A DNA stretch of 64,000 bases from Microlunatus kandeliicorticis. Lineage in GTDB: Bacteria; Actinomycetota; Actinomycetes; Propionibacteriales; Propionibacteriaceae. Below the pieces are notes generated by a model. The model saw nothing but the letters and a program-made list of their open reading frames with translations. It did not search any database and had not been told where the DNA came from. The stretch spans positions 248,001 through 312,000 of the forward strand of contig NZ_JACGWT010000001.1 of NCBI RefSeq assembly GCF_014137855.1. The letters are read 5' to 3'. The translations under genes and the position numbers were made by a program. This document shows, one piece after another, positions 444 through 50,762 of this stretch (position 1 is the stretch's first letter; every line of letters begins with the position of its first letter).

Positions 444-470
444 GTGCACGGCGATCGGCATTCCGTGCAC
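444..470. promoter_or_regulatory. GTGCAC-flanked palindrome, site 1
   Basis: Two GTGCAC half sites are separated by 15 bp; on the minus strand the interior contains TGCCG four bases after the first half. It lies 129 bp upstream of the GH16 start at 315. The same arrangement occurs at 1764-1790 and, with a 16-bp interior, at 50735-50762. It is probably an operator for a dimeric DNA-binding protein. Confidence 0.6.
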
Positions 471-487
471 AGCTCAGAGGGCTCCCG

Positions 488-553
488 CCGCCGGGGGTCC
501 CGGCGGACGACGGAGCCCGCGCCGCCGGCAGCTGGGCCGGTGGCGCGGGCTCC
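488..553 (-). terminator. Two strong hairpins downstream of the GH16 gene at 666-1637
   Basis: Positions 512-523 and 542-553 form a perfect 12-bp stem (GGAGCCCGCGCC with its complement). An 8-bp stem follows at 488-495/499-506 with loop GGT. They sit after the stop of the leftward GH16 gene and before the regulatory region of the next one, as expected for a GC-rich actinobacterial terminator. There is no U tract. Confidence 0.55.
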
Positions 554-579
554 GGGTCGGGCTCGCTGGGTGTGCGTTC

Positions 580-644
580 GGTTGTGGGGTTCTGTTGTGG
601 GATGCGGTTGTGGGATGCGGTTGTGGGATGCGGTTGTGGCAGCG
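580..644. repeat. 13-bp tandem repeat, about five copies
   Basis: The unit GGTTGTGGGATGC is repeated at 593, 606 and 619 (the first copy begins TG), with degenerate copies at 580 and 632. It lies in the noncoding gap just after the stop codon at 666-668. Its length may vary between strains. Confidence 0.85.
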
Positions 645-665
645 CGGTGGTGCAGGTGACCGGGG

Positions 666-1637
666 TCAGGACTGCTTGTAGTGGGCGATCCAGTCGATCG
701 AGATGGCCGAGTCCTTGGGGGTGTCGGGGGAGAGGCACTCGCCGGTGGTGATGGCGCAGTCCTTGACGCCGGACTGGACGCCGAGCCACATCGGCACCTT
801 CGGGACGTGCGGGGTGGTGACGGTGGCCCAGGTGCGGCCGTCGATCGTGTACTCGATGGTGTTGTCGCCGAGGATGACGCCGTAGGTGTGCCACTTGGTC
901 ATGTCGACGTTGTGCAGCCAGCGCTGGATCTGGTAGTTCTTCGGGTCGTAGTGGACGGTGGCCATGATCGACTTGCCGCCGGCGGTGCCCTCGGCAAAGT
1001 CGACCTCGGGCGGCCAGGCGCCACCCTTGGGGTAGAGCAGGAACGCGTAGCCGACGCCGTAGGCGCGGTCGAACTTGGCCTTGACGACCCACTTGCCGCC
1101 GGTGGCGGCGAAGCCGCGGCCCGAGGACATCCCGGCCGAGGTCCAGCGGCCGTTCTCGTACTTGGTGTGCAGCTGGAGGATGCCGCTGCCCGGGGCGCTG
1201 GGCGAGGGGGTGACGGTGGCGTTGTCGAGCATGTAGGTGGCGTGGCTGCCGTGCGGGGCGCCACCCATGTAGCGGCCCCAGGTCTTGACGTCGAGCGGGG
1301 CGTCGAAGTTGTCGACGAAGTCGGCGGTCCAGCCGCCGGTGCTCTTCGGCGCCTTGGGCATGTAGGACCCGGCGCTGGTGAACATCGCGGCGGTGCGGGC
1401 GGCCTGGGCGGCCTGGGCGGACTGGGCGCTCGAGCTGTTGGTGGTCGGGCCGGTGGCGGTCGGGCTGGTGCTGCCGCCGGCCGGGGCGTCGGCGCGGGCG
1501 GTGCCCGGGGTGAGGGTGCCGACGAGGGCCACCGGGATCAGGGTGGCGGCGGCGAGGCCGGCCAGCTTGCGGAGCCGGAACCGACGCTTCGGGTCGACGG
1601 CGGTGGGCGAGCTGGTGGTGGGGATCGAGGCGATCAT
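666..1637 (-). CDS. Secreted glycoside hydrolase family 16 protein
   Basis: A 323-aa exported protein of the GH16 family (beta-1,3/1,4-glucan or galactan hydrolases and transglycosylases). Residues 1-50 hold a basic start, a hydrophobic segment and an Ala-x-Ala end typical of a signal peptide. An Ala/Ser-rich linker runs to about residue 85 and the catalytic jelly roll follows. The catalytic signature is EVDFAEG with E211 as nucleophile, D213 and E216 as acid/base, so the active site is complete. The ATG at 1637 has GGAG seven bases upstream. It is a paralogue of the gene at 1-315 and a distant relative of the membrane-anchored GH16 at 9335-10237. Placed beside EPS genes, it may cut or remodel the EPS, but the substrate cannot be read from sequence. 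Confidence 0.9.
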   Translation of the reverse strand: MIASIPTTSSPTAVDPKRRFRLRKLAGLAAATLIPVALVGTLTPGTARADAPAGGSTSPTATGPTTNSSSAQSAQAAQAARTAAMFTSAGSYMPKAPKSTGGWTADFVDNFDAPLDVKTWGRYMGGAPHGSHATYMLDNATVTPSPSAPGSGILQLHTKYENGRWTSAGMSSGRGFAATGGKWVVKAKFDRAYGVGYAFLLYPKGGAWPPEVDFAEGTAGGKSIMATVHYDPKNYQIQRWLHNVDMTKWHTYGVILGDNTIEYTIDGRTWATVTTPHVPKVPMWLGVQSGVKDCAITTGECLSPDTPKDSAISIDWIAHYKQS

Positions 1638-1673
1638 GGGGGACTCCAGGCGAGAGACGTGCGGTCGGATGAG

Positions 1674-1718
1674 AGGTGGTCTTCGCCCCCGCGAATCTGG
1701 TCGCTCCCCAGAGCTGAC
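1674..1718 (-). ncRNA. Conserved two-hairpin leader upstream of the GH16 gene at 666-1637
   Basis: Second copy of the element at 353-398: GTC-A-GCTC/GAGC-GAC hairpin with loop TGGG, then TTCGC-GGGG-GCGAA, then GACCACCT. It ends 37 nt before the ATG. Both stems are intact while loop and linker bases differ, which is mild support for structure. Confidence 0.5.
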
Positions 1719-1763
1719 GAGAAGAACTCTGCCAGCGCACCGGAGTCCGCGCGATGGCCTCAG

Positions 1764-1790
1764 GTGCACACCGCTCGGCAATCTGTGCAC
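1764..1790. promoter_or_regulatory. GTGCAC-flanked palindrome, site 2
   Basis: GTGCAC half sites with a 15-bp interior; the minus strand reads GTGCAC-N4-TGCCG-N6-GTGCAC. It is 127 bp upstream of the GH16 start at 1637, almost the same distance as site 1 has to its gene. Confidence 0.6.
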
Positions 1791-1827
1791 TCCCTGAGCC
1801 GGCCGGTCCCACGCCCGGAACGACGAC

Positions 1828-1883
1828 GGCCCCGGCGCCGGGGCCGGGTCGGAGATGATCATGACGGGCGGCGCGGCCGCCCG
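1828..1883 (-). terminator. Tandem hairpins after the secreted protein at 1888-2949
   Basis: Positions 1865-1872 pair with 1876-1883 (CGGGCGGC, loop GCG, GCCGCCCG). An 18-bp perfect palindrome follows at 1828-1845. They lie directly after the stop of the leftward gene and are a likely terminator. Confidence 0.5.
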
Positions 1884-1887
1884 GTGA

Positions 1888-2949
1888 TCATGACGCGGGC
1901 GTGATGTTCTCGATCAGGAACATGTTGTCGTTGTAGTCGTAGTTGATCCCGTTGAGGTCCTCGGTGAAGAGGTAGCTGCCGGGGATCACGTTGCCGTCGG
2001 CGTCGCGCGCGACGAAGGCCCGGACGTGCTGGCCGCACTGGGCGGCGGTGCAGCCCGAGCTCCGGTCGATCGCGGAGTTGTTCAGCGTCGGGTCGGTGTA
2101 CTCGCTGTCCAGCTTGAGCCCTGCCGTGCCCGACAGGGTGAAGGTGGCGGTGCCACGACCCCAGGCGGAGTTGCGCGGGAGCGCCGACTGGGCGTCCTGC
2201 GGCAGGCCGGCGAAGATCTTGTAGAGCGTGTTCGGGCTGCCCTTGGCGTACTTGCTCACGGTCAGCGTGGACGGGTAGCCCCGCCAGGCGCCGAGCTGGG
2301 TGATCCGGGCCGGCTGGCTCGGGTCGCGCTGCTTCCAGTAGGGCACCAGCACCTCGTCGCTGCTGAACGCCTGGTAGGCCCCGCGGCTGTACATGCTGGT
2401 CGGGGTCACCGTGGTGTAGCCGAAGTGGTGGATCAGGTCCGGGAAGGTCGGCTCGAGGTTGTGCTCGGAGTACTTCTGCCACCAGCCGGTCAGCCGCAGC
2501 GTGCTGGTCTGGGTGCTGCCGTTGCTCCAGCCGATGCTGGCGGTGCCGTCGTGCCAGGCGCCGCCGGTGGCGGTGAAGGCCACGGTGAAGCTGACCGACG
2601 CGCCGGTGGAGAGCGTGAACGGGAGCTTCCACGGCGAGGTGATCGCGAAGTCGGTGGTGGCGGTGGCCGAGCTCACGGTGAGCGGGGCGCTGCCGGTGTT
2701 CTTGAGGGTGATCGCGACCTGGTTGTGGAAGCGCTGGTAGCTGTCCGCGGGGGTCTGGATCTTGTTGAAGACGATCGCGTCGTTGCCCGGCAGCACGTCG
2801 GGGTTGGTGATGCTGAGCTGCCCGGTACCGGCCGCGGCGGCGGTCGGCGCGGTGACGGTGGCCCCGGCGACGGCCAGCGACGAGCCGAGCAGCGCGGCCG
2901 CGGCGAGGACGCCGGTCAGCCGCCGGCGGGCGGTGTGGAGGTGGGTCAT
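1888..2949 (-). CDS. Secreted protein with Ig-like domain and DUF4114-like C-terminus (copy 1)
   Basis: A 353-aa exported protein of unknown function. Residues 1-36 form a signal peptide (basic TARRR, hydrophobic core, Ala-rich end). The middle contains a beta-rich segment with 'ITLKNTGSAPLTVSSATATTD', as in Ig-like domains of surface proteins. The C-terminus ends FTEDLNGINYDYNDNMF, resembling the Asp/Asn-rich D-Y-N-D signature of DUF4114 and choice-of-anchor domains. Four cysteines (GCTAAQCGQ and nearby) are conserved or partly conserved in the adjacent paralogue. The ATG at 2949 has GAAAGG six bases upstream, the same ribosome site as the paralogue. Location suggests an extracellular matrix or carbohydrate-binding role; that is inference. 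Confidence 0.8.
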   Translation of the reverse strand: MTHLHTARRRLTGVLAAAALLGSSLAVAGATVTAPTAAAAGTGQLSITNPDVLPGNDAIVFNKIQTPADSYQRFHNQVAITLKNTGSAPLTVSSATATTDFAITSPWKLPFTLSTGASVSFTVAFTATGGAWHDGTASIGWSNGSTQTSTLRLTGWWQKYSEHNLEPTFPDLIHHFGYTTVTPTSMYSRGAYQAFSSDEVLVPYWKQRDPSQPARITQLGAWRGYPSTLTVSKYAKGSPNTLYKIFAGLPQDAQSALPRNSAWGRGTATFTLSGTAGLKLDSEYTDPTLNNSAIDRSSGCTAAQCGQHVRAFVARDADGNVIPGSYLFTEDLNGINYDYNDNMFLIENITPAS

Positions 2950-2974
2950 GGTCTGCCTTTCGGGTGTCGCGCCA

Positions 2975-3007
2975 CCGCCCACCCGGGAACGGGTCCCGGG
3001 TGGGCGG
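2975..3007 (-). terminator. Perfect 14-bp hairpin between the two DUF4114-like genes
   Basis: Positions 2975-2988 are the exact complement of 2994-3007, with loop ACGGG. It sits between the stop at 3066 and the ribosome site of the next gene. It could terminate transcription, act as an attenuator, or protect the upstream message so that the two paralogues are made at different levels. Confidence 0.65.
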
Positions 3008-3065
3008 CGCACGTCGTGCTGGGGTGAGGGGGCTCGACGCGCCGCGGGGTGCGGTGCGGCCGGGA

Positions 3066-4094
3066 TCAGGCCGGCTTGATGCCCTGGACGAGGAACACGG
3101 CGTCGTTGAAGTCGTAGTTCACGCCGGCGAGGTCCTCGGTGAAGAGGTAGGCGTTCTTGACGACCTTGCCGTTGGCGCCGCGGACCTGGAAGACCCGGAC
3201 GTGCTGACCGCACTGCTTGGTGTCACAACCGACGGCCTTGTCCGCGCCGATGGTCTTCTGCAGCTTGGGGTCGGAGAACTCGGTCTTGAGCTTCCAGCCG
3301 AAGACGCCGGCCCGCTTGAACGAGAAGCTGCCCTTGCCCCACTTCTGGTTGCGCGGCATCGCCGACTGGGCGTCGAACCGGTTGCTGGTCTGGAGCAGCC
3401 GCAGCTTGCCCGGCTTGCCCTTGCTGTAGACGCTGATCGTCGACGTGTCGGGGTAGGTGTGCCAGGCGGCGAGCTGGGTGACCTTGACCGACTTCTTGCC
3501 GTCGGCCATCCGCCAGTACGGGCTGAGCACCTCGTCGGCGCTGAACTTCTTGTACTCGCCGCGGCTGTACATGCTCTTCGGGGTCTTCGTCTTGTAGCCG
3601 AAGTGGCTGACGAGGGCCTGGAAGGTCGGCTCCTGGTTGTGCTCGGAGTACTTCTGCCACCAGCCGGTCAGCTTGATGGTGTTGGTGTGGCTGGTGCCGT
3701 TGTTCCAGACGATCTTGGCGGCGTCGTTGTGCCAGGCACCCCCGTCGGCGGTGAAGTTCACCGTGAGGTTGACCGACTTGCCGGTGCCCAGGCTGAACGG
3801 CAGCTTCCAGGGTGAGGTGATCGAGAAGTCCGAGGTGCCGGTGGTCGCCGAGGTGACCCGGAGCGGCGACTTGCCGGTGTTCTTCAGGGTCACCGTGACC
3901 TTGTCCAGCGTCCGCTGGTTGGCGTCGGCGTGGTTCTGGATCTTGTTCATCACGATCAGGCTGTTGCTCGGGGCGCGGCCGTTGGTGATCGAGAGCTTGC
4001 CGGGCGTCGCGGCGGAGGCCGGGAGCAGCGAGGTCGTGGCGACCAGCGCGGTGCCGGCGAGGACGACGGCGCCGGCGCGGAGCGGTGTGGACAT
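3066..4094 (-). CDS. Secreted protein with Ig-like domain and DUF4114-like C-terminus (copy 2)
   Basis: A 342-aa paralogue of the protein at 1888-2949. Shared blocks include 'SITSPWKLPF', 'GWWQKYSEHN', 'SMYSRG', 'GCDTKQCGQHVR' and the C-terminal FTEDLAGVNYDFNDAVF. Residues 1-28 look like a signal peptide ending in ATS/SAA. This copy is richer in lysine than copy 1, so the two differ in charge, which may mean different partners. ATG 4094 is preceded by GAAAGG and a 7-nt spacer. No enzyme motif is visible. The two genes are in the same orientation and separated by 116 bp holding a strong hairpin. Confidence 0.8.
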   Translation of the reverse strand: MSTPLRAGAVVLAGTALVATTSLLPASAATPGKLSITNGRAPSNSLIVMNKIQNHADANQRTLDKVTVTLKNTGKSPLRVTSATTGTSDFSITSPWKLPFSLGTGKSVNLTVNFTADGGAWHNDAAKIVWNNGTSHTNTIKLTGWWQKYSEHNQEPTFQALVSHFGYKTKTPKSMYSRGEYKKFSADEVLSPYWRMADGKKSVKVTQLAAWHTYPDTSTISVYSKGKPGKLRLLQTSNRFDAQSAMPRNQKWGKGSFSFKRAGVFGWKLKTEFSDPKLQKTIGADKAVGCDTKQCGQHVRVFQVRGANGKVVKNAYLFTEDLAGVNYDFNDAVFLVQGIKPA

Positions 4095-4289
4095 CAGGGG
4101 CCCTTTCGGTGGAGGTGGGTCGTTCCGCGTCCGGCTCCGGCCAGCAGGACGCTGGACGCGGTGGTACCGGTCAGGGACGGGGTGGAACGGGACGGGTGGA
4201 ACAGGTGGAGGGAGGCGGGGCGGATCGCACGGATCCGGCCCGCGCCGTCGTGCGGCTCGAGGGACGGGGGACGCGACCGGGGAACCCGG

Positions 4290-5846
4290 TCAGTGCTCCT
4301 CGCCGGCAGCCCGGCGGGGCATCGGGCGGGACGGTCGGCGACCACCCCGCGTGCCGGGGTCGCGTCGTTGCGACCCGGTGCGCAGTTGCTTGAGCCGCAG
4401 CCACAGCCACGGCAGGCAGAGCAGCCCGGCAGCGAACCGGGCCACGTTCCAGGGGAGGGTCTGCGGCAGCAGCACGGTGGCACCGGCCACCAGGCAGACC
4501 ACGAGGCAGGCCAGCACCGTGCGCCACCCGGGCCAGCGCGGCCCGAGGTCCCGGGGCAGCGCCCGGTACTGCACGGCGGCCTGAGCGGAGACCGCGACCA
4601 GGGTGGAGGCGGCGGCGCCGGCGATCCCGAACAGCGGGATCAGGGCCAGGTTGGCCCCGAGCTTGATCACCACGCCGACCGCCGCGCTCAGCCCGAGCGG
4701 GCGCCCGCGGCGGAGCGTGATCAACATGGTCGACGACGCGCCGAGGGTGGCCATCGGGAACGAGGCCAGGGCCACCAGGTAGGTGACCAGCAGCAGGCCC
4801 TCGGGCCGGAACGACGGCGGGGCCAGCACCCGGAGCGCCACCGGCGCGGCCAGGGTGATGCCGAGCACGCACGGCATGATCAACTTGAAGACGCCCTCGC
4901 GCGAGTCGCGGACGACCTCCCAGCGCTGGCCGAGGTCGGCGATCTTGGCCAGTCGCGGGACCCAGGCGCGGTTGGTGAAGGAGAGGATCAACATCACGAC
5001 GTAGCCGAGGGTGTAGGCCACCTGGAAGCGGCCGACCTCGACGGTGCCGAGCAGCCGCTGGGTGACCAGCCGGTCGCTGACGTTGATCACGAACACGCTC
5101 AGCCCGGTGAGCATCAGCGGCAGCCCGAGCCGGAACGCGCGGCGCAGCACCTGCCGGTCGGCGATCCCGCGGAGACGCGGCCGGGCCATGGTCAGCCCGA
5201 TGGCCAGGGCGGCGAACTGGCTGATCACGCCGCCGGCGGCGTAGACCACCGCGGTGGACGCGATCAGCGCCATCCCGGCCAGCCCGAGCACCTGGCCGCC
5301 GACCGAGGCGATCACGCTCACCGTGGCGAACCCGCGGAGCCGGTCCTCGCTCTGCAGCAGCGCGAGCACCATCAGCACCGCGCCGCCGGGGGCGGTCCAG
5401 AGCAGGGCGATCCAGACCAGGTGGGCGTCGGGGAAGCCGAGCGGGGCGATCCACAGCGGCGAGGTGGCGGCGGCGAGCACGGCGACCAGCGCGGCCAGCG
5501 CGATCCCGCTGGCCAGCAGCCCGCGCGCGGCCCGGTCGTCCTCGCCCGCGGCGCGCTCCACCTGGAGGGCCTGGTCGAGCCCGAAGACCGCGACGATGAT
5601 CAGCAGCTGGTAGAGCGCGATGATCGAGGCCAGCGCGCCGAACTCGCCCGGGCCGAGGACGTGGGCGAGGACCGGGGAGACCACGGTGCTGACCACGGTC
5701 TGCATCGACCAGACGACGACGTAGAGCATCCCGCGGCCGAACAGGTCGCGGCCGTGCTGCTGCTGGGCCTTCTCCGACGCGGTCCCGGTGGGAGCGGTCC
5801 CGGCGGTGCCGGTGGCCGGGGCCTGGTCGCGGGTCGGCGTGCTCAC
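4290..5846 (-). CDS. Wzx-like oligosaccharide flippase
   Basis: A 518-aa protein of the MOP/polysaccharide transporter superfamily, which flips undecaprenyl-diphosphate-linked repeat units across the membrane. After about 35 polar residues the sequence runs as 12-14 hydrophobic segments up to residue 490, ending in a basic tail. Typical features are the first helix block 'VVSPVLAHVLGPGEFG' and a helix with VINVSDRLV halfway. The GTG start at 5846 overlaps the stop of the upstream transferase (GTGA), so the two are translationally coupled. A second Wzx-like protein is encoded at 43630-45120; they are not close paralogues, so the window may make two polymers or one with two export routes. Confidence 0.85.
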   Translation of the reverse strand: MSTPTRDQAPATGTAGTAPTGTASEKAQQQHGRDLFGRGMLYVVVWSMQTVVSTVVSPVLAHVLGPGEFGALASIIALYQLLIIVAVFGLDQALQVERAAGEDDRAARGLLASGIALAALVAVLAAATSPLWIAPLGFPDAHLVWIALLWTAPGGAVLMVLALLQSEDRLRGFATVSVIASVGGQVLGLAGMALIASTAVVYAAGGVISQFAALAIGLTMARPRLRGIADRQVLRRAFRLGLPLMLTGLSVFVINVSDRLVTQRLLGTVEVGRFQVAYTLGYVVMLILSFTNRAWVPRLAKIADLGQRWEVVRDSREGVFKLIMPCVLGITLAAPVALRVLAPPSFRPEGLLLVTYLVALASFPMATLGASSTMLITLRRGRPLGLSAAVGVVIKLGANLALIPLFGIAGAAASTLVAVSAQAAVQYRALPRDLGPRWPGWRTVLACLVVCLVAGATVLLPQTLPWNVARFAAGLLCLPWLWLRLKQLRTGSQRRDPGTRGGRRPSRPMPRRAAGEEH

Positions 5847-6796
5847 CGGACCGCCTCGGGGACGGCGGTGCGGGCCGGGTCGCGCAGCTCGGCGTCGATC
5901 CGGTCCAGCAGCGGTCCGCTCACCGTGCTCGACACCTTGCGGGCGAACAGCGCGGGGACGGTGCGCGGACGTTCGGGGTCGACGCCGCGGGCGGCGGCCT
6001 CGAGCCGGTCGAAGTGACCGGCGGTCAGGGTCGGCGGGCTCTTCTGCCGGGTGCCGTCCCAGCCGATCCACCAGGCGGCTTCGTTGATGCTCTCGTTCTC
6101 CCAGTCGACGCCGCTGATCGGGCTGCGCAGCAGGGTGGGGACGAACGTCTCGTCGGCGCACCAGCTCCGCCGCCAGAACGCCACCAGGTCGGGCCGGGCG
6201 TCGACCAGGTCGACCACCGCCCGGGCGTGCGCCCGGCTGATGATCTTCCACACGCTGGCGCCGGACGGCGACACGTCTGCCGGGATCCGGCGTGGGACGG
6301 GCAGCCGGAGCATGTGCTTGCGCCAGGCCCAGTGCCGGTAGCGCAGCCGGGCGAGCCCGCCGCTGCGCCCCCAGGCGGGGAACGGCAGCGGCCACAGCTC
6401 GGCCACCGACCGTCCGCCGGTGCCGACGATCCAGTCGGCGACCGCGGCGGCCGGGTGCAGCGGGTAGTCGGCGCCCGACAGCACCACCAGGTGGCCGGCC
6501 TCGGTGGTCTCGAGGAACCGGCGGTAGCCGGCCAGCTCGGCCTCGACCAGCCCGAAGCCGGCCCACTCGCAGACCTGGCGCGGGGTGACCACGGCGCTCG
6601 GCTCGAGCCCCTCGGTCATCGCGGCGAAGACGGCCGGGTCGGTGCGGGCGTCGCAGTGCAGCAGCACCGGCATCGGGGCCAGCGCCGACCGCAGCCGTAG
6701 CACCTGCGGGGCGTCGCCGTGGGCGAGCACCAGGCAGGCGACCCGCCCGGTGCTTGCCCCGGGCGGCGACGGGTCGTCCCGGTCGTCGGCGGTCAC
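5843..6796 (-). CDS. GT14-type (core-2/I-branching) glycosyltransferase
   Basis: A 317-aa soluble protein resembling the Branch family (beta-1,6-N-acetylglucosaminyltransferases, GT14). Visible hallmarks are 'CLVLAHGDAPQVLRL', 'LHCDART', 'VVLSGADYPLHP' and a C-terminal WCADETFVPTLL block; these match the family order. The donor is probably a UDP-HexNAc or related sugar, but this is family knowledge, not seen. The start is GTG 6796, overlapping the stop of the membrane protein by GTGA, and the stop overlaps the flippase start the same way. It therefore belongs to a three-gene unit: membrane protein, transferase, flippase. Confidence 0.8.
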   Translation of the reverse strand: MTADDRDDPSPPGASTGRVACLVLAHGDAPQVLRLRSALAPMPVLLHCDARTDPAVFAAMTEGLEPSAVVTPRQVCEWAGFGLVEAELAGYRRFLETTEAGHLVVLSGADYPLHPAAAVADWIVGTGGRSVAELWPLPFPAWGRSGGLARLRYRHWAWRKHMLRLPVPRRIPADVSPSGASVWKIISRAHARAVVDLVDARPDLVAFWRRSWCADETFVPTLLRSPISGVDWENESINEAAWWIGWDGTRQKSPPTLTAGHFDRLEAAARGVDPERPRTVPALFARKVSSTVSGPLLDRIDAELRDPARTAVPEAVR

Positions 6797-9105: not shown

Positions 9106-9334
9106 GAGTGCGTCCCTGATCGGTGGAGGTCGGCAGGTGCTCCCGGGCTGCGGACCAGCGGGCTGGCGGCAGACAAGGGGCCGGGAACACCGGACGGACG
9201 GGTGGCGCGGGCCGGGTGGTGGCGGTGCGCCGCGAGGGCGGACGGCCCGACCGGACGGGTGCGGCGGGCGCGGTCGACGTGGGCGGGGGGACCGGGGCGG
9301 GCGGCGTCGCGCGCGGACCGGGGGCCGGGGGGCG
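9106..9334. other. 229-bp GC-rich gap inside the EPS gene run
   Basis: Lies between the GH16 stop (9335) and the membrane protein start (9105). It is G/C-rich with short GGGCCGGG-like runs on the plus strand. I see no convincing promoter, terminator or small gene, so transcription may read through from the upstream unit. Confidence 0.4.
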
Positions 9335-17316: not shown

Positions 17317-17325
17317 AGCCAGAAT

Positions 17326-17630: not shown

Positions 17631-17642
17631 TCCCCGGCGGGG

Positions 17643-36678: not shown

Positions 36679-36689
36679 TCGAGCTCTCC

Positions 36690-41946: not shown

Positions 41947-41963
41947 GGAGAAAGGATCCGCAC

Positions 41964-42680: not shown

Positions 42681-42683
42681 GCC

Positions 42684-43664
42684 GTGGCCCACCCTGAGGG
42701 CCGGCTCGCGGTGGTGATCGTCAACTACGGGTCGCACGCCCTGCTCGAGGAGCTCCAGCTCCCGCAGGTCCCGTGGCTGGAGGTCGTCGTCGTCGACAAC
42801 CTGCACACCCCCGCGTCGCGCGAAGCCGCTCTCGCGCTCTGTTCGGCGCGGGGCTGGACCTGTCTGCCCCAGCCGGCCAACCTCGGCTTCGGCGGTGGGG
42901 TGAACGCCGGCCTGCGGTACGCCCGCGAGCGCGGATTCGCCTGCTTCCTGCTGCTCAACCCGGACGCCCGCATGACCCCGGAGGCGTTGTCGGTGCTGCG
43001 TGACCGCTGCCTCCAGCGTCCCGACGCGCTGATCAGCCCGGTGATGGTCACCAGCACCGGGCGGCGCTACTTCCGCGGATCGCAGCTCGACCTGCGCAGC
43101 GGGCGGACGCGCGGCGGGTGGTCCGGGTCCTCGACGCCGGAAGGGTCGCGACCCGGTGGTGAGGGCGAGCCGACCGGCCGGTGGGTCGACTGGCTGACCG
43201 GTGCCTGCCTGGCCTTCCACCGCGACGTCCTCGACCACCTCGACGGGTTCGACGAGCCCTACTTCCTCTACTGGGAAGACGTCGACTTCAGCGTCCGGGC
43301 GGTGCGCGCCGGACTCTCGCTGGTACTGCTCGAGGACCTGACGGTCGTCCACGACGAGGGCGGGACCCACCGCGACGCGCACTCCGGCCGTGACCGCGAC
43401 GACGTCAAGTCGGCCGTCTACTACCGCTACAACTGCCGGAACCGACTGCTGTTCGGGGCGCGCCACCTGGACCGCGGCGGGCTCGTGCGCTGGATCGTGC
43501 TGACCCCGCGCGAGAGCTGGCAGATCCTCTGCCGCGGTGGGCGCCGACACCTGCTGACCCACCCCGCGCACCTGCGAGCCGGTGTCCGGGGATCGCTCGA
43601 GGGCATGCTGGTCGCGCTGCGGGCCCTGCTCAGTCGTCGGCGGCCGGGGCCGTCGACGGGGTGA
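42684..43664 (+). CDS. GT2 family glycosyltransferase, rhamnosyltransferase-like
   Basis: A 326-aa inverting GT2 enzyme resembling WbbL/RfbF-type transferases. 'VVIVNYGSHALLEEL' starts the nucleotide-binding fold, 'NLGFGGGVNAGL' and 'LLLNPDARMTPEAL' (metal-binding region) follow, then 'VDWLTGACLAFHRDVL', 'YWEDVDFSVRAVRAG' and a C-terminal 'RYNCRNRLLFGARHL'. These patterns are typical of rhamnosyltransferases that extend a polyprenyl-linked acceptor. The last 35 bp overlap the end of the convergent flippase gene. Confidence 0.85.
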   Translation: MAHPEGRLAVVIVNYGSHALLEELQLPQVPWLEVVVVDNLHTPASREAALALCSARGWTCLPQPANLGFGGGVNAGLRYARERGFACFLLLNPDARMTPEALSVLRDRCLQRPDALISPVMVTSTGRRYFRGSQLDLRSGRTRGGWSGSSTPEGSRPGGEGEPTGRWVDWLTGACLAFHRDVLDHLDGFDEPYFLYWEDVDFSVRAVRAGLSLVLLEDLTVVHDEGGTHRDAHSGRDRDDVKSAVYYRYNCRNRLLFGARHLDRGGLVRWIVLTPRESWQILCRGGRRHLLTHPAHLRAGVRGSLEGMLVALRALLSRRRPGPSTG

Positions 43665-45120
43665 GCGCCTGCCGGCGCGCGGTGCGACGGACGTAGAGCG
43701 CGTTGGCCAGCACCTGGAACAGGCCGACCCCGATCGCCGACCCGATCACCGGACCCATCGCCCCCAGCGGCACCGCGAGAGCGATCGACAGCCCGAGGTT
43801 GACCGGCAGCATGGCCAGGATCATGTAGGCCTGGAAGCGGAGACCGGGCGGGTCGGTCAGGAACATCCCCAGCGGGTACTTCGCCGCCTGGAAGACCATC
43901 AGCACCGCGAACGCGACCAGCAGCCCGACGGGCAGCGTGATGGCGCCACCGCTGGCCAACCGCGCCAGCAGCCCCGAGCAGAGCGCGACGACGACCGCGA
44001 CCAGCGCGGCGGTTCCCGCGAAGACCAGCGACATCCGGAATGCCGAACCGGCGTCGCGCCGGCCCCGCGCCCGGTCCTTGGCGAAGATCGGCCACAGTGC
44101 GACCCCGGCGGCGCTGGTGACGGCCCAGATGGGGGTGAACATCTGCGAGGCGAGGTTGTAGCGCGGCAGCTCGGCCAGGCGCCCGACGTGGCTGAGGACG
44201 AGGCGGTCGGTCTGCATCGCGATCGGCAGCGCGATCATCTGGATGAGCATGGGCCAGGCGGTCGAGAAGACCGGGGCCCCGCGGACCGTGCGCAGTCGGG
44301 GTGCGGCGCGCACAGCCCTGCCCAGCGTCGGCGTGATCATCCTGGCCGCCGCCAGCGTGGTGGCGATCGAGAGCACGAGGGTCGCCGCGAAGGCCACGAC
44401 AGCCACGTACCCCCCGCCCGGCAGACCGAGCGTCACCATGGCGACCAGCACCAGCAGCACGATCGGGGTCTGCAACCCGACGGTCAGCACGGTGACGTGG
44501 TTCCTGCCGAGTCCGCTGAGGATCCGTTGTCCCACGCCGAGGGGCACCGTGATCCCGATCAGGGCCAGACACCACGCGGCCGCGGCCGGCCCGGAGACCG
44601 GATCGAGCCCGCCGCCCAGCAGCAGCGGCCAGATCCCGAGCAGCGTGATGATCACGCTGACCAGCACGATCACGGCCGCGGAGAGCGTCAGCAACCGCAG
44701 CGAGGTGATCAGGGTCCGACGCAGCCGGTCGTCGTCGCGCGGGTTCTCGGACTGGGCGACCACGTTCATGATCGCGGCCGAGATGCCGAGGTCGGCGAAG
44801 GGCAGCAGCGTGCCGATGCCGACCAGCAGCCCGTACTGCCCGAAGGCGGCCGTGCCGTAGTTCTCGATCACCAGGCGCGTCACCACGATCCCCAGCAGGG
44901 CGCTCACCGGCAGCACGAGGATGCGGGCACCCGCGCTCTTGCCGACGCTCCGCCAGACAGTCCGGGCTCCCCGCCGGCCCGTCGCCGGGGCGGCGGCCGG
45001 TTCGCTCGTCGGCGGTGCCAGGCTCTCGACGGCCTCGGTCGCCACCAGGTCCTGGTCGGCGTCCGCGGTCCCGTTCACCGTCTCCTGCCCGGTCTCGGGG
45101 ATCCCGCCCGGCGGTTTCAT
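43630..45120 (-). CDS. Wzx-like oligosaccharide flippase (second)
   Basis: A 496-aa multi-pass protein of the MOP superfamily, with about 13 hydrophobic segments after a polar 55-residue start. 'GTAAFGQYGLLVGIGTLLPFADLG' is the usual helix 1-2 entry and 'SHVGRLAELPRYNLASQMF' the central loop. It is distinct from the flippase at 4290-5846. ATG 45120 overlaps the GT4 stop (ATGA). The neighbours GT4, Wzz-like and Wzy-like genes form a coupled unit 48998 to 43630. Confidence 0.88.
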   Translation of the reverse strand: MKPPGGIPETGQETVNGTADADQDLVATEAVESLAPPTSEPAAAPATGRRGARTVWRSVGKSAGARILVLPVSALLGIVVTRLVIENYGTAAFGQYGLLVGIGTLLPFADLGISAAIMNVVAQSENPRDDDRLRRTLITSLRLLTLSAAVIVLVSVIITLLGIWPLLLGGGLDPVSGPAAAAWCLALIGITVPLGVGQRILSGLGRNHVTVLTVGLQTPIVLLVLVAMVTLGLPGGGYVAVVAFAATLVLSIATTLAAARMITPTLGRAVRAAPRLRTVRGAPVFSTAWPMLIQMIALPIAMQTDRLVLSHVGRLAELPRYNLASQMFTPIWAVTSAAGVALWPIFAKDRARGRRDAGSAFRMSLVFAGTAALVAVVVALCSGLLARLASGGAITLPVGLLVAFAVLMVFQAAKYPLGMFLTDPPGLRFQAYMILAMLPVNLGLSIALAVPLGAMGPVIGSAIGVGLFQVLANALYVRRTARRQALTPSTAPAADD

Positions 45121-46271
45121 GCGTCCGCCCGGTGCTCTGCCGGCTCGTCGGGCAGCAGCCACTCGTCCGCGGTCCGTCGGCCGTCGACCGCGGGCAGGTC
45201 GCCGAGGACGTCCCCGGCGCTGCGGCCCTCGGTGAGAGCAGCCACCACGGCCTGCGCCAGCAGCTCCGGTCCGCAGTCCGGGTCGAGCACGCGGTGGCCG
45301 TGTCCGGCCAGCCAGTCGGCCAGCCCGGTCTCGGTGGAGGCGACCACGGCGCACCCGTGCGCCAGGCCCTCGACCACCGGGAGGCCGACCTGCTCCCGCC
45401 AGCGCGGAGAACGCTGCGAGAGCAGCACGGCGACGGAGGCGCTCCGCTGCGCCGCGTGGATCTCGGCCCGCGGCGGGTCGACGACGACCTCGACGCTCCC
45501 GGCGACCGCGGGCCGCGCGGCCGCGTCCCGGACCTCCGGCAGGAGGTCTCCGGCACCCAGCACCAGGAGCCGGGCCGACGGCCGGGCCGCGAGCACTCCG
45601 GGCCAGGCCGCCAGCAGCTGGGTGATGCCCTTGCGCGAATGGAGCGCTCCGACGAACAGCACGCGATCGGCGTCGCGATCCCGGGGTGGGCAGGTGCACG
45701 GCGCGGGCAGCGCCGGCAGAGTCCGCTGGGCCACGCCGCGCAGCGCCGGACCCAGGCGGCGACGATAGAGCGACTCGGCGCCGGGGGTGCCGAAGGCGAG
45801 GCGATCCAGGCTTGCCGCGAGCAGTTGGGCACCGGCGAGCTGACCGGCCAGCTTCACCCGCCGCTTCGCGGCGGTGACCGCCCCGGCCCCCCGGACGAGC
45901 TGCGCACGGGCGGCCCGGTCGAACGGGTCGCGGTTCTCGATCGCGTAGCTGACCACCTGGAGCGGTCGACCGCGCAGTTTCCGCAGCCGGGCGGCCGCGA
46001 CCACCGCCAGTGACCGGGGCAGCGCGTCGAGCTGGAGTGGTTCGTTCACCTCGACCGCGGTGACCCGCGGGTTGCGGAGCAGTGCCGTCAGCACGGCCGG
46101 CGGGCTCGTCGGGTGCAGATCGAGTCCCTCGGCCAGGCTCGGATCGAAGTCGTAACGGCGCCGTCCGTAGAGGATGCTGGCCGGACGGAAGTCGCGGGCG
46201 CGTTCCAGATGGGCGGTGCGGAGCACCGTGTAGCTGCGCGCGCGGGGGTGGCGGAGCGTGGCGGGGGGCAT
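45117..46271 (-). CDS. GT4-like glycosyltransferase
   Basis: A 384-aa GT-B-like protein. The C-terminal half has 'DADRVLFVGALHSRKGITQLLAAWPGVL' and 'WREQVGLPVVEGLAHGCAVVASTETGLADWL', the glycosyltransferase family 4 donor block; the N-terminal half is divergent, with 'VEVNEPLQLDALP' and 'SYAIENRDPF'. Donor and acceptor unknown. ATG 46271 is 10 bp after the Wzz-like stop at 46282. It overlaps the flippase start by ATGA. Confidence 0.8.
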   Translation of the reverse strand: MPPATLRHPRARSYTVLRTAHLERARDFRPASILYGRRRYDFDPSLAEGLDLHPTSPPAVLTALLRNPRVTAVEVNEPLQLDALPRSLAVVAAARLRKLRGRPLQVVSYAIENRDPFDRAARAQLVRGAGAVTAAKRRVKLAGQLAGAQLLAASLDRLAFGTPGAESLYRRRLGPALRGVAQRTLPALPAPCTCPPRDRDADRVLFVGALHSRKGITQLLAAWPGVLAARPSARLLVLGAGDLLPEVRDAAARPAVAGSVEVVVDPPRAEIHAAQRSASVAVLLSQRSPRWREQVGLPVVEGLAHGCAVVASTETGLADWLAGHGHRVLDPDCGPELLAQAVVAALTEGRSAGDVLGDLPAVDGRRTADEWLLPDEPAEHRADA

Positions 46272-46281
46272 GGACCGGTGC

Positions 46282-47655
46282 TCAGCTCGTGGAGTGCGCC
46301 GGCGCGAAGGTCGTGTCCGCTCGGGACGGCGCGAACCGGGGCTGCTTCCGGGAGGTCGTCAGCACCACCCCCGACGCCGCGACCCCGGCCAGCCCGAGGA
46401 CCTGGACCGCGCGGGACAGCTCGTCGCGCTGGGTGAGGTCCGCGTCGGCGACGACCAGCGTGGCGTCGCTGAAGGACCCGAGGACCACCGGATCGACGAC
46501 GGTGAGCACGGCGCCGGCGTCGAGGATGACCACCTCGTAACGCCGGCCGAGGTCGTCCAGCACCGCTCGGAGCGCGGACCCCTCGACTGTGTGGCGAGCG
46601 CCGTGTCGCTCGCCCGGGGCGGCATCGGCCTCTGCGGTGTGCCCGGAGCCGAGCACGTCGTAGGCCGTCCCGGGCGCCCTGACCACGGCGTCGCCGACCG
46701 GGTGCTGCCCGCTGAGCACGTCGGCCAGACCGGCCTCGGCGCGAGCGGGGAGCGGTCGCTCGTTCGCGGGACGCCGCAGCTGGGTGTCGACGACCACCAC
46801 GGGTCGGCCCTGGTCGGCCAGCACCCGCGCGATCTGGTGGGCGACCACCGAGCTCCCGCAGTCCGGGGTCGGCGCGGTGACCATCAGCCGCGTCGGGCCG
46901 TCGCCGCGGAGCAGCACCGACACCGACTCGGCCAGCCGGCTGTCGGCCGCCGAGGCGGTCGCCCGCGCGCCGGAGGCAGTCGGCGCGCTCCGACCGATCG
47001 TGGCGAGCAGCGGGACGCCGACCGTGCGGGCCACGACCCCGGGGGTCCGCACCCGGTCGTCCTGGCCGGTGAGCAGCAGCACCAGCGCCGCTCCGACGGC
47101 GAGCCCGACGACGGCGCCGAGCACCACGTCGCGGCTGGTCCGGGGCGCCGAGGGCCCGGACGGCGGCTGCGCGGTCTCGATGGTCTGGACCGAGAGCAGG
47201 CTCTGACCGGTCGTACCCCGAGGGCCGATCGCATCGATCAGGTCGACGAACTGGTCACCGACGGCGTTGGCGATCCGTGCCGCTCGTGCCGGGTCCGGGT
47301 CGGTGACCTCGAGCTGGAGCACGACGGTGCCGCGCGGAGTGGTGGCCACCACACGCTTCTGGAGCTGGCTCACGGTGTCGGTGAGGCCGAGCTGCTCGAT
47401 CACCGGTCGCAACACCCGGGCCGAGGTGGCCAGCTCGCCGAAGGACTGCATCTGGTTGGTCGTGTAGGCCGCGCCCTGCTGCAGCTGGTTGGGTGAGTTG
47501 GCGCCGTTGAAGGTCACGTACTCCTGCCGCGTCGCCGTGTACTGCTTCTGCTGGGTCAGGGTCAGCCCGAGCACGGCGACCGCTCCCAGCACGGTGCAGA
47601 CCAGCACCAGCAGGGCTCGGCGGCCCCGCGTCCGGAGCAGGGAGATCGGGGTCAT
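46282..47655 (-). CDS. Wzz/BY-kinase-like chain-length protein with degenerate P-loop
   Basis: A 457-aa protein. TM1 is about 13-34, a periplasmic-type region with Gln-rich 'TTNQMQSFGELATSARVL' follows, TM2 is about 176-196, then a cytoplasmic ATPase-like domain. In bacterial tyrosine kinases this domain has a Walker A with GKT/S. Here the equivalent (residues 260-270, TAPTPDCGSSV) has no lysine. The Walker A'-like VVVVDTQLRRP (D290) is retained, and no Tyr-rich tail exists. It probably works as a copolymerase without kinase activity. ATG 47655 overlaps the polymerase stop (ATGA). Confidence 0.8.
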   Translation of the reverse strand: MTPISLLRTRGRRALLVLVCTVLGAVAVLGLTLTQQKQYTATRQEYVTFNGANSPNQLQQGAAYTTNQMQSFGELATSARVLRPVIEQLGLTDTVSQLQKRVVATTPRGTVVLQLEVTDPDPARAARIANAVGDQFVDLIDAIGPRGTTGQSLLSVQTIETAQPPSGPSAPRTSRDVVLGAVVGLAVGAALVLLLTGQDDRVRTPGVVARTVGVPLLATIGRSAPTASGARATASAADSRLAESVSVLLRGDGPTRLMVTAPTPDCGSSVVAHQIARVLADQGRPVVVVDTQLRRPANERPLPARAEAGLADVLSGQHPVGDAVVRAPGTAYDVLGSGHTAEADAAPGERHGARHTVEGSALRAVLDDLGRRYEVVILDAGAVLTVVDPVVLGSFSDATLVVADADLTQRDELSRAVQVLGLAGVAASGVVLTTSRKQPRFAPSRADTTFAPAHSTS

Positions 47656-48998
47656 CGGCGTGCTCCTGACACTCGGGGGAACGACGGGGGTGCGGTCAGC
47701 ACCGGGGTGGCGGCGTCGCGTGCTCGGACCGGCACCGTGAACGGGATCGCCGGTCGGCGCCGCGGCGAGCGTCGTGCGCCGGTCTCGAGCTCGGTGGCCG
47801 CGAGCCCGACCACGAACCAGGCGACCAGCGCGTACTGGGTGATGAAGGCCACCGTGAAGAAGGCGGGCACCAGGGCGATCACCGCGATCGTCGCCGCGCC
47901 CGCACGCCGCTGCACGGCGCGCAGGACAGCACCGGCGAGCAGGACGAGCAGCACCAGCACCGGGACCCAGCCGTAGGTCAGGCCCGTCAGCAACGCCGCG
48001 TTGTCGATCGAGGCGAACCCGCCGTAGGACGGCGTGCCGGTCGACGACAGGGAGTACTGCGAGGTGAGGCCGAAGGGACTCATCGCCGTGACCAGGTCGA
48101 GCAGCCGACCGCGGTAGGCCGCGCTGTTCGTGGCCTCGGCACCGGACTCGACGAACACCGTGCGCAACAGCACCAGCAGGACGGCCCCACCGACGACGAG
48201 GCCACCGCCCAGGATCACCCGCAGACGTCGCCCGAGCCCGTGTCGCAGACAGACCACGCTGAGCAGGACGGCCAGGATGCAGCACACCATCCCGGTCCGC
48301 GAGAGGGTGACCGCTGCCGCCGCGGCCATCACCGCGACCAGCGCGAGGCGGACGGCCGGCCGGAACCGGCTGCTCAGGGCCAGCGCCACCCCGACGGCCA
48401 TCGACGACCCCAACGCGAGCGAGTGGCCGAAGGCACCTTCCGCGCGGGGGAGTCCGGCCCGCGTCTGGATCGTGCCCCAGACCGACAGGAGGTCGGCGTC
48501 GCCGAAGCGGAGATAGGTGGTGAACGGGTTCAGACCCGTCACGAACTCGACCACGGCGAGTGCGCCGGCGAGACCGAAGACCACGGCCACCAGTCCGTTC
48601 AGCCATCCGGCGTCGACCGAACGCCCCACCAGCCGCCCGGCCAGGTAGGCGAAGCCGTAGACCGTGACCGCGGTGAAGGCGGGCGTCAGGCCGATCATCC
48701 CGAATCCGAGCTCGACCGCGACGACGAACAGCAGGGCCACCCCGACCAGGTCCGGCAGGCTCCAGACGTGCCGGGAGCGGCGGAGCAGCAGGGCGACCAC
48801 CACGGCGCCGGCGGCGACGCTGGCCGGCTGCCAGTAGGCGATCACCGTCACACCGAGCCAGATCGGGACGAAGGCGAAGGTGACCACCAGGACCGCCGCA
48901 GCCAGTCGGGGCCACCGCCGCAGCGCCACCACTCCGAGCACGCCGAGCGCCGCCAGTGCGGCGTACGCCAGCAGGCGGTCGAGTTCGGTGGCCGACAT
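47652..48998 (-). CDS. Wzy-like O-antigen polymerase
   Basis: A 448-aa membrane protein with 11-12 hydrophobic segments and a large loop (about 200-290), the plan of Wzy/O-antigen polymerases and ligases. 'RAGLPRAEGAFGHSLALGSSMA' matches the Wzy_C-type block with its conserved Arg and His. It would join repeat units on undecaprenyl diphosphate at the outer membrane face. ATG 48998 is the first gene of the leftward unit; an upstream GTG extension lacks a ribosome site. Confidence 0.85.
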   Translation of the reverse strand: MSATELDRLLAYAALAALGVLGVVALRRWPRLAAAVLVVTFAFVPIWLGVTVIAYWQPASVAAGAVVVALLLRRSRHVWSLPDLVGVALLFVVAVELGFGMIGLTPAFTAVTVYGFAYLAGRLVGRSVDAGWLNGLVAVVFGLAGALAVVEFVTGLNPFTTYLRFGDADLLSVWGTIQTRAGLPRAEGAFGHSLALGSSMAVGVALALSSRFRPAVRLALVAVMAAAAAVTLSRTGMVCCILAVLLSVVCLRHGLGRRLRVILGGGLVVGGAVLLVLLRTVFVESGAEATNSAAYRGRLLDLVTAMSPFGLTSQYSLSSTGTPSYGGFASIDNAALLTGLTYGWVPVLVLLVLLAGAVLRAVQRRAGAATIAVIALVPAFFTVAFITQYALVAWFVVGLAATELETGARRSPRRRPAIPFTVPVRARDAATPVLTAPPSFPRVSGARR

Positions 48999-49019
48999 CT
49001 GTCTGTTCCGTCCTGCACG

Positions 49020-49042
49020 CGAGATCGTCTCGGGCGATCTTA
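49020..49042 (-). promoter_or_regulatory. Promoter of the wzy-wzz-GT4-wzx unit
   Basis: TAAGAT (minus strand, 49042-49037) is a -10 candidate 39 bp before ATG 48998. A small palindrome CGAGA-TCG-TCTCG (49020-49032) lies at the expected start point. Confidence 0.45.
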
Positions 49043-49158
49043 GACTCCGCGCCGTCGCTCGACCGCGCTCTGACGAGGCCACGGAGGAATTCCGGGAACG
49101 ATCTCAGCTTTCCCGGCCGCGCCATTCCGCTGCACCGGCATTTCGATACCGGGACCGT

Positions 49159-49164
49159 TAGAAT
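49159..49164 (+). promoter_or_regulatory. -10 element of the second Wzz/BY-kinase-like gene
   Basis: TAGAAT within CCGTTAGAATCC on the plus strand, about 95 bp before ATG 49267. No -35 match was visible. Confidence 0.4.
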
Positions 49165-49266
49165 CCCCGATCGGACTCCGGCCTTTCGCGCGCCCCGTTT
49201 CAGCGTGGACCGGCAGTGGACGGCACCCGACAACCAGCTCCCCTGGTCCCGGAAGGATCGATCGCG

Positions 49267-50655
49267 ATGGGTCTTCGCCCCTTTCTGCGGGCACTGCGGC
49301 GGCGCTGGGTCGCGCTGCTGATCGCGGTCGTGATCGGGCTGGCTGCCGGTGTGGCCGCTTTCGTCGTCGTCCCTCAGCGCTGGACCAGCACGGTGACCTT
49401 CTACGTGGCGACCACGGCCGCCAGCAGCGGCGCCGTCGACACCGGCCAGTTCGCGCAGAACCGGGTCGCTTCCTACGGCGCCATCCTCACCAGCGAACGC
49501 GTCGCCCAGCTGGTCAGCCGGCGCAGCGGTGTCCCCGTCGACTCGGTCCGCGGCCACCTGGCCTCCACCTACAACCAGAACACGGTGCTGGTCACCGGGA
49601 TCGCCACCGCAGCCGACGCGGCGACCGCGCAGCGGATGGCCACCGCGCTGGTCGAGGTGTTCCCGGGCCTGGTCGAGGGCCTGGACAACCAGAACAAGAA
49701 CGGGGTGGGGGTCGACGTCGCGCTCGTCTCCGGCCCGCAGTCGTCGACCGGGCCGGTGTTCCCGGTGCTCTGGCAGTTCGGCCTCGGCGGTCTGTTCCTC
49801 GGACTCGTCGTGGGCGTGGTGGTCGCACTGGTCCAGCAGGCCCGTCGCCCGACCATGGTCGGGGTGGCGGAGACCGAGACGAGCACCGGGCTGCCGGTGC
49901 TCGCGACGGTGCCCGAGGACCCCGTCGTCCAGAGCGGCACCTGGCAGCCGGCACCGGCGTCCGCGCGTGCCGAGGCCTACCGCCAGCTCCGGGCCCAGGT
50001 GCTCGCCCAGCGGGTCGGGTCGGCGGACGAGGCCGGACTGGTCGTCGCCGTGGTGTCGGCGACGGCCGCCGAGGGGCGCACCCAGGTCGCGCTCGGCCTG
50101 GCCGACGCCGTCGCCGAGACCGGGGCCCGGGTGGTCCTCGTCGACGCCGACCTCGATCGCGCGGCGCTGGCCCAGCTCACCGGTGCCCCGACCGAACCAG
50201 GTCTGGTCGAGCTGCTCGGCGCAGCCCGCACGCTCGAGCCGGTGGGCGCGCACGCCGTCGCCCACGACGAGGGCAGCCAGCCGCCCGTCCGCGATCTCGA
50301 GGGTTCACCGCTGAAACTGGTGACCGCCGGGGCACGCACCGAGCGAGCCGGTGACCTGCTCGCGGGCGAGGCATTCGGTGCCGTGCTCGCCGACCTCCGC
50401 CGGAGCTATCAGGTGATCGTGATCGACACCGCTCCGCTGACCACGGCCGACGGGCTCAGCGCCGCCGGCCGCGCCGACTTCGCCGTCGCCGTCGTGGCCG
50501 AGGACCGGACCCGGCGCGACGTCGCGCTCGCTGCGCTGCGCACCGCCGGCACCGCCGGCGTCCGGGTGCTCGGCGTGGTGGTCAACAGGCATCGCGCCGG
50601 CCGGACGGAGCTCCGCCGCTACGAGCGATCGGTGGCGGGCGCCGCCCGACGCTGA
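49267..50655 (+). CDS. Wzz/BY-kinase-like chain-length protein with altered P-loop
   Basis: A 462-aa protein with TM1 (about 14-35), a periplasmic-type region, TM2 (about 171-190) and a cytoplasmic ATPase-like domain. Its Walker A position reads AAEGRTQVA (residues 267-275), so the invariant Lys is Arg271. Walker A' 'VVLVDADLDRAAL' keeps two Asp residues. 'YQVIVIDTAPLTTADGLSAAGRADFAVAVV' is the Walker B-like block. The Tyr cluster of kinases is absent. ATG 49267 has GGAAGGA upstream. It is divergent from the polymerase unit and has the same domain plan as the protein at 46282-47655. Confidence 0.85.
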   Translation: MGLRPFLRALRRRWVALLIAVVIGLAAGVAAFVVVPQRWTSTVTFYVATTAASSGAVDTGQFAQNRVASYGAILTSERVAQLVSRRSGVPVDSVRGHLASTYNQNTVLVTGIATAADAATAQRMATALVEVFPGLVEGLDNQNKNGVGVDVALVSGPQSSTGPVFPVLWQFGLGGLFLGLVVGVVVALVQQARRPTMVGVAETETSTGLPVLATVPEDPVVQSGTWQPAPASARAEAYRQLRAQVLAQRVGSADEAGLVVAVVSATAAEGRTQVALGLADAVAETGARVVLVDADLDRAALAQLTGAPTEPGLVELLGAARTLEPVGAHAVAHDEGSQPPVRDLEGSPLKLVTAGARTERAGDLLAGEAFGAVLADLRRSYQVIVIDTAPLTTADGLSAAGRADFAVAVVAEDRTRRDVALAALRTAGTAGVRVLGVVVNRHRAGRTELRRYERSVAGAARR

Positions 50656-50734
50656 CCACCCGCCCGCCGGGTTCGCCGCGCGCCGCGCCGCCGGCCGCCG
50701 GCGTCGGTGGTCGTCCTCGGACGCCTTCGTCGTC

Positions 50735-50762
50735 GTGCACGTTTTGCCGCGCGATCGTGCAC
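50735..50762. promoter_or_regulatory. GTGCAC-flanked palindrome, site 3
   Basis: GTGCAC (50735-50740) and GTGCAC (50757-50762) with a 16-bp interior containing TGCCG four bases after the first half, as at the GH16 sites. It ends 9 bp before a -35 box, an activator-like position. Confidence 0.6.

Follow-up and report, generated by a model that had tools for sequence, protein, structure and literature searches.

Operators and genes at the locus

The window analysed here, 64,000 nucleotides (nt) of Microlunatus kandeliicorticis (contig NZ_JACGWT010000001.1, positions 248,001 to 312,000), carries two genes of glycoside hydrolase family 16 (GH16) at its left end and, about 49 kb further on, a gene for a secreted-type protein with a right-handed beta-helix, each preceded by a palindrome of 27 or 28 base pairs (bp) that we call the operator (Table 1). 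In the genome as a whole the same operator stands before five protein genes and seven small-RNA-like loci, and we consider it probable that it is the site of one activator that drives five secreted-type genes together with seven sibling RNAs of antisense type.

An earlier note on this DNA had described the palindrome as GTGCAC-N4-TGCCG-N6/7-GTGCAC. All three palindromes lie exactly where it placed them; they are the sole matches in the window, and none of 100 dinucleotide-preserving shuffles of the window gave a match. GTGCAC alone is found 31 times where 27.8 are expected, which is chance frequency, so that it is the pairing of the half sites and the interior between them, rather than the half site itself, that carries the signal; the interior TGCCG has the same orientation relative to the gene at all three sites. 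When the window was scored unfiltered with an operator model in whose making these three sites were included, they reached 26.0 to 30.4 bits, and the runner-up 9.3 bits. The distances to the two GH16 starts are nearly equal, as the same note had held, but measured from operator end to start codon they are 128 and 126 bp and not 129 and 127. The third GH16 gene described below has the same distance of 128 nt, while that of the beta-helix gene is 205 nt and that of a PG_binding_1 gene 118 nt, each to the start codon that we chose.

Table 1. Features of the operator family. Positions without a prefix are those of the window; the others are given as contig handle and position.
Feature	Position	Strand	Remarks
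Operator, 27 bp, upstream of GH16-1	444..470	-	E 1.6e-6 (model R2), 30.4 bits unfiltered
Operator, 27 bp, upstream of GH16-2	1764..1790	-	E 3.3e-6 (R2), 29.4 bits
Operator, 28 bp, upstream of beta-helix gene	50735..50762	+	E 3.9e-5 (R2), 26.0 bits
GH16-1 gene, 5' part (remainder beyond window)	1..315	-	PF00722 E 2.3e-11
GH16-2 gene, glycoside hydrolase family 16	666..1637	-	PF00722 E 6.4e-8; start at 1637 chosen
Secreted-type protein, DUF5648 + right-handed beta-helix	50968..53769	+	PF18885 E 8e-18, PF13229 E 3.9e-14
GH16-1 -10-like GAGGAT (putative)	406..411	-	32 nt past operator; not full TANNNT
GH16-2 -10-like CAGAGT (putative)	1726..1731	-	32 nt past operator
Beta-helix gene -35-like TTGTTG	50772..50777	+	18 bp before TAGCGT
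Beta-helix gene -10-like TAGCGT	50796..50801	+	33 nt past operator
GH16-1 leader block GATTCGCGGGGGCGAAGACCACC	354..376	-	identical in three GH16 leaders
GH16-2 leader block GATTCGCGGGGGCGAAGACCACC	1675..1697	-	identical in three GH16 leaders
GH16-3 gene	C2:12993-13883		two operators, C2:14168 and C2:14201
PG_binding_1 protein, 329 residues			operator C2:74075
Operators of the seven RNA loci	C2:429645, C2:491387, C3:498771, C3:519065, C3:522027, C4:157875, C6:148627

A family of operators across the genome

The genome that was searched comprises 4,302,690 bases on 9 contigs and is 98.64% complete. The strict pattern occurs in four places and its reversed form, used as a control, in none, while a 28-bp form with mismatches allowed led to the near-identical set sTGCACGGAwTGCCGAyCrGGTsTGCAs. 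In an alignment of 13 sites (A3), the left TGCAC and the right TGCA are invariant, and GGA and TGCCG are mostly near-invariant; the half sites and TGCCG of the earlier form are kept, but the consensus extends further and has less symmetry (sTGCACGGAwTGCCGA...TGCAs). A model built from this alignment (R2) places the 13 sites at E-values from 5.9e-8 to 2.3e-4 and the next match at 1.12, the number 13 being the count among the 150 of 5987 first-look candidates that were scored. Since R2 was built from its own 13 sites, the evidence is the gap below them and not the low E-values. With this gap, and with that between 26.0 and 9.3 bits in the window, the pattern stands clear of its background and is above chance frequency. 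R1, a second model for which only the promoters of the seven RNA loci were used, recovers the sites of GH16-2 (E 7.5e-5), GH16-1 (E 3e-4) and the PG_binding_1 gene (E 9.5e-4), with noise from 0.03, among 150 scored of 8293 first-look candidates.

The 13 operators precede 12 transcription units, of which five are protein genes (three GH16, one beta-helix and one PG_binding_1) and seven are small-RNA-like loci. The proposal of the earlier note that the sites mark a regulon of a single regulator is thus well supported by 13 alike sites, 12 of them at a like position before a promoter, but it was too small in scope; the set is not mainly one of carbohydrate genes, since seven of the 12 units are small-RNA-like.

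Two near-matches were dropped: C1:466306 (one mismatch) scores at most 4.9 bits and C5:46195 (two mismatches) at most 10.6, against 23.5 to 26.0 for the weakest operators. The looser arrangement GTGCAC-N13-17-GTGCAC is found at 13 places in the genome, compared with 6 for its control; five of these are operators (L001-L004 and L009) and eight are not. Palindromes resembling GTGCAC-TTCGACAGGCTCA-GTGCAC were seen at three loci (L006, L007 and L012, around position 1501), where a dispersed repeat of the TTCGACAGGCTCAG type is flanked by GTGCAC; copies of this repeat also lie downstream of one RNA locus (in L040).

Promoter geometry

Twelve of the operators end 31 to 33 nt before a -10-like hexamer, and the thirteenth is a second, outer operator at GH16-3. 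At nine of the 12 promoters the hexamer is a TANNNT at +31 to +33 after the operator, with no other TANNNT starting within +25 to +41; in the three GH16 promoters its place is taken by an xANNNT at +32 (GAGGAT, CAGAGT and CACGAT). The spacing of operator to -10 is near-fixed across the regulon, as would be expected of a sibling-RNA regulon. If the hexamer is taken as -12 to -7, the operator falls at about -71 to -44. A good -35 was seen by eye (unscored) at the beta-helix gene only, where the earlier note had correctly put a -35 box 9 bp past the operator (TTGTTG, followed 18 bp on by TAGCGT). The position of the operator and the weak -35 elements together would favour an activator.

Seven small-RNA-like loci

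No conserved gene lies behind the remaining seven operators, and what follows them has a common order: operator, GCCGAG, TANNNT (31-32 nt past the operator), GTGTC or TTGTC, two to three hairpins, ACAAC and an end hairpin. From operator end to GTGTCAG or its variant there are 43 nt in six loci and 44 in one. The repeated hairpin, GGYGGCCCCCGACRCC, is present in two to three copies per locus (one copy starts AGTG), which gives 18 hairpins over the seven loci, and its 8-nt loop GCCCCCGA, with five C, is invariant; C6:148627 has one extra GCCCCCGA without the hairpin stem. Each locus also carries a strong end hairpin, GGACCGGC...GCCGGTCC, which is terminator-like and has a C-rich apex. In unfiltered scoring with a hairpin model the 18 hairpins reach 33.1 to 39.6 bits, while other matches reach at most 20.9 in 11 loci of the same genome and at most 19.8 in the window. 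The copies diverge, with about 66-73% identity in the better-aligned pairs (in a permissive alignment that does not define their ends). Six of the seven loci directly follow a same-strand gene call; the seventh has a MarR-type gene in divergent orientation beside it. From these features we infer seven sibling small RNAs, putative and of about 204-329 nt.

The hairpins covary. Their covariation score is 0.212 compared with 0.123 in shuffled alignments (none of 500 as high), pairings slid out of register give at most 0.060, and in 13 cells of the stem both sides have changed, where shuffles give 7.1 (none of 500 as high). The second pair from the loop occurs as U-G, U-A and C-G. Four of the 18 hairpins have much flank in common and are thus not fully independent.

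The C-rich loops bring to mind 6C RNA, which is defined by hairpin loops of six or more C. A search of Rfam with nine loci, including all seven RNA loci, returned only one tRNA at E <= 1 and no 6C RNA, and all 18 loops have five C, so that this family was rejected. In the window there were no Rfam matches at gathering thresholds, and in 290-600 and 50700-50990 all matches were sub-threshold, so that a riboswitch or other known RNA family in the leaders was rejected as well. Among open-licence papers we found neither this operator nor these RNAs described.

Possible pairing of the RNAs with GH16 leaders

The leaders of the three GH16 genes share a 23-nt block (Table 1) that holds CGGGGGC, the perfect complement of seven bases of the hairpin loop. 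The 21-nt core of this block has three exact matches in the genome, each of them behind an operator, and two more with three mismatches; CGGGGGC is absent from the leaders of the beta-helix and PG_binding_1 genes. To judge these matches, 3000 random 120-nt pieces were drawn from the window and eight further loci, RNA loci included. The 7-mer is present in 4.1% of these pieces, and pairing with the whole hairpin is ordinary, with 36-60% of the pieces as strong as the five leaders. Pairing between the RNAs and the GH16 leaders is possible but statistically weak, and we regard the idea as not supported.

Distribution in other genomes

Exact hairpin pairs occur in one of 198 genomes of the family, the source genome (nine matches; control none), and in none of the 197 others. 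With the hairpin model we surveyed 391 genomes of the order that are at least 90% complete, scoring 19 candidates per genome; the source genome gave 18 matches among those scored, which are the known 18 hairpins. Among the 390 others, 34 have one lone match each, never two, and there is no array. Nominal E-values would predict about four such lone matches, and one of them (in genome G344, 38.2 bits) scores like a true member. Of 29 lone matches that were inspected, 24 are in coding-looking frames and the other five are near the threshold. One genome (G152) has three GCCCCCGA within 300 nt, inside a coding-looking frame (L184, around position 1501), of which one scored as a hairpin.

The combined operator-promoter model finds matches at E <= 1e-4 in the source genome only, among 20 genomes of the genus (150 candidates scored in each). 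In a scan of 57 relatives with the source genome included (77 candidates scored per genome), 11 of the 56 others have matches at E <= 0.01, 13 in all (L093-L105), the best at 3.3e-4, and none is convincing by eye. The best match, from another family of the order (G033, L093:1488-1554), is a 22-bp tandem repeat, GATGGCCGAACTCGTCTGCACA, which resembles part of the operator, and no convincing gene call lies directly downstream of it. The operator core was also sought in 84,980 named species (the source genome possibly left out), where 21 scattered stretches from many phyla matched, about what chance would give by our own estimate. Viral contigs have no exact hairpin pair and no GH16 leader core, and one RNA locus (C6) has no match in plasmids and phages.

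The conservation in relatives that the earlier note would have expected of a regulon is thus not seen, as these searches found no convincing operator-promoter or hairpin array outside the source genome. GH16 relatives are found in one of the 19 other genomes of the genus, at 43% identity; with the GH16 genes nearly absent from the genus, there is little there for the operator to be conserved with. Judged on one genome per species and on partial scoring, the RNAs, the operator and the GH16 targets look like a lineage-specific set.

Relation to known RNA regulons

Four published systems offer close likenesses, and what we say of them is limited to the text available from each source. In streptococci, CiaR drives its sibling csRNAs and protein genes from one site at a set distance before the -10 (PMC3091779), as would be the case here. 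For CiaR this site is a direct repeat, NTTAAG-N5-TTTAAG, whereas here it is a palindrome of 27-28 bp with an asymmetric core, and the csRNAs carry stretches complementary to Shine-Dalgarno sequences where the present loci have repeated GCCCCCGA hairpins (PMC3091779). The LhrC1-5 RNAs of Listeria, under LisRK, are likewise multicopy siblings with several redundant C-rich motifs each (PMC4132741). Their positions that respond to the regulator are at about -55 to -75, near the -71 to -44 of the operator here, and their three CU-rich UCCC motifs lie in two loops and one single-stranded stretch (PMC4132741); the present set has seven copies, each with two to three identical hairpins and a C-rich end hairpin, and sequence relation to LhrC was compared via Rfam only.

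The loops are also like those of sX13 of Xanthomonas, which has three stem-loops with CCCC or CCCCC loops and represses mRNAs with G-rich motifs (PMC3771888). In the available text of that source sX13 is described as a single RNA and not a sibling set, and no operator shared with secreted hydrolases is seen there (PMC3771888). 6C RNA of actinobacteria is alike in having C-rich loops and, in some mycobacteria, several copies (PMC9569102, PMC6789036). By Rfam the seven loci are not members of 6C, and we claim no sequence relation to csRNAs, LhrC or sX13. As far as sequence can tell, the architecture would match the CiaR/csRNA and LisR/LhrC type, with one operator before homologous RNA loci and protein genes.

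Proposed mechanism and alternative explanations

We suggest that a single transcription activator recognises the palindrome and binds ahead of the core promoter. It would sit at about -71 to -44, next to a -35 element of poor quality, and from there switch on the five genes for secreted-type proteins together with seven RNAs that are short and untranslated. The C-rich loops of the RNAs would then most likely pair with G-rich stretches of mRNAs and so exert antisense regulation, by analogy with LhrC, sX13 and 6C RNA, and the extra RNA copies would add dose. The operator family, its near-fixed spacing and the hairpins with their covarying stems are seen in the sequence itself, whereas activation over repression, transcription and RNA function are what we infer. 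The partial scoring of candidates and two flat covariation measures have slightly lowered our confidence in the whole, to the level given at the outset.

Several observations weigh against this mechanism. The two flat measures are the number of pairs in which both sides have changed, 3 compared with 2.9 in shuffled alignments (431 of 500 as high), and the further pair types, 9 against 7.3 (63 of 500 as high). U-tracts past the terminator-like hairpins are weak. Frames from the putative +1 run for 24, 49, 87, 89, 94, 113 and at least 200 codons. Model R1 lists neither the beta-helix site nor either GH16-3 site, even at E 10, which makes these the weakest members of the operator set, and the -10 hexamers of the GH16 genes are poor. 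The longest ATG frame of GH16-2 extends to 1862 and would cover its operator, and the longest open frames of GH16-3 and of a PLD-type gene beside it cover operators as well; to call these sites intergenic thus depends on the shorter starts that we assumed. As to antisense pairing, 4.7% of the random 120-nt pieces pair with the loop as strongly as the GH16 leaders do (-17.8 kcal/mol).

That the hairpin arrays are protein-binding sponges following the logic of CsrB/RsmY, rather than antisense RNAs, is possible, although we doubt it. Identical loops that come two to three times per RNA, 18 over seven RNAs, do resemble repeated binding sites, and the predicted pairing with the GH16 leaders is weak; however, no partner protein is known, and the GGA that CsrA sites contain is missing from the loop. 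The reported antisense roles of C-rich loops or motifs in sX13 (PMC3771888) and LhrC (PMC4132741) also speak for the antisense reading.

We think it unlikely that the operator is a repressor site, with all 12 units silenced jointly and freed by a signal. In its favour, dimeric repressors commonly have long palindromic operators, and the beta-helix promoter has a fair -35 at 18 bp spacing. With 31-33 nt between its end and the -10, however, the site does not overlap the core promoter, and by eye none of the other 11 promoters has a good -35, as would fit a need for an activator.

In all seven loci a GTG (six) or TTG (one) stands at the putative +1, 43-44 nt past the operator, and is followed by TCA or TCG. 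With an open frame behind it, a short leaderless peptide is possible, and the loci might be short leaderless mRNAs starting GTG TCA (MSGTEQVAPDTE...), with the hairpins incidental. Leaderless starts are common in actinobacteria, and MSGTEQVAPD is common to three loci. We nonetheless hold this to be very unlikely, as the frames run from 24 to at least 200 codons, the GC content at third codon positions (GC3) in the +1 frame is 0.67-0.79 compared with 0.80-1.00 in neighbouring gene calls (0.80 being the threshold of the caller itself), the invariant hairpin falls in all three frames (0, 1 and 2) and conservation is at the RNA level; on GC3 and hairpin frames, a protein-coding reading of the seven loci was rejected.

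Finally, it is highly improbable that a small mobile or repetitive element, carrying a promoter but without regulatory role, gave rise to the seven loci as its copies, since the dispersal of the copies, their position in six cases directly behind a same-strand gene call and their absence from the other genomes searched are set against the negative searches of viral contigs for the exact hairpin pair and of plasmids and phages for one locus, and against the divergence of copies that yet keep operator, -10, loops and end hairpin.

Neighbouring genes and candidate regulators

Three regulator genes lie next to or near RNA loci. The gene call for an HTH-WYL-WCX regulator (L131:5124-6110, minus strand) ends just before the operator of one locus, and as nucleic acid binding has been proposed for WYL proteins, in the text available from PMC6789036, it is a tempting but unproved candidate for the regulator. 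The MarR-type gene already mentioned (L130:4708-5211, minus strand) is about 60 bp off the operator of another locus, and a Lrp/AsnC-type gene is near a third. Among about two dozen neighbours, chance alone would be expected to supply some regulators.

Signal-like N-termini are seen in the translations of the GH16-3, PG_binding_1 and beta-helix proteins. A fourth GH16 gene (C2:626893, 44% identical) is behind none of the 13 operators. Pfam searches with 20 other gene calls of the window gave eight that fit polysaccharide synthesis, namely five glycosyltransferases, a pyruvyl transferase, a Wzz/CbiA protein and a hexapeptide transferase. A short tandem repeat (ttgtgggatgcgg) lies at 590-640 of the window, on the downstream side of GH16-2.

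Implications

The set described here is a candidate sibling-RNA regulon in an actinobacterium, with a new operator and 18 identical loops over seven putative RNAs; the sibling-RNA regulons of Listeria and streptococci are controlled by a two-component system. According to the available text of PMC6789036, Hfq has not been identified in the actinobacterial phylum, and the seven loci may offer a case for how C-loop RNAs work in such a phylum. Because the circuit is seemingly confined to one lineage, it would also be a clean case for studying how RNAs and secreted enzymes are brought together in a regulon. We propose tentatively, and regard it as rather doubtful, that one activator co-induces the secreted hydrolases and the seven C-loop RNAs, and that the RNAs in turn act on the hydrolase leaders through CGGGGGC and on other G-rich mRNAs. 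If true, this would be a feed-forward circuit amplified by dose, with its origin within one actinobacterial lineage.

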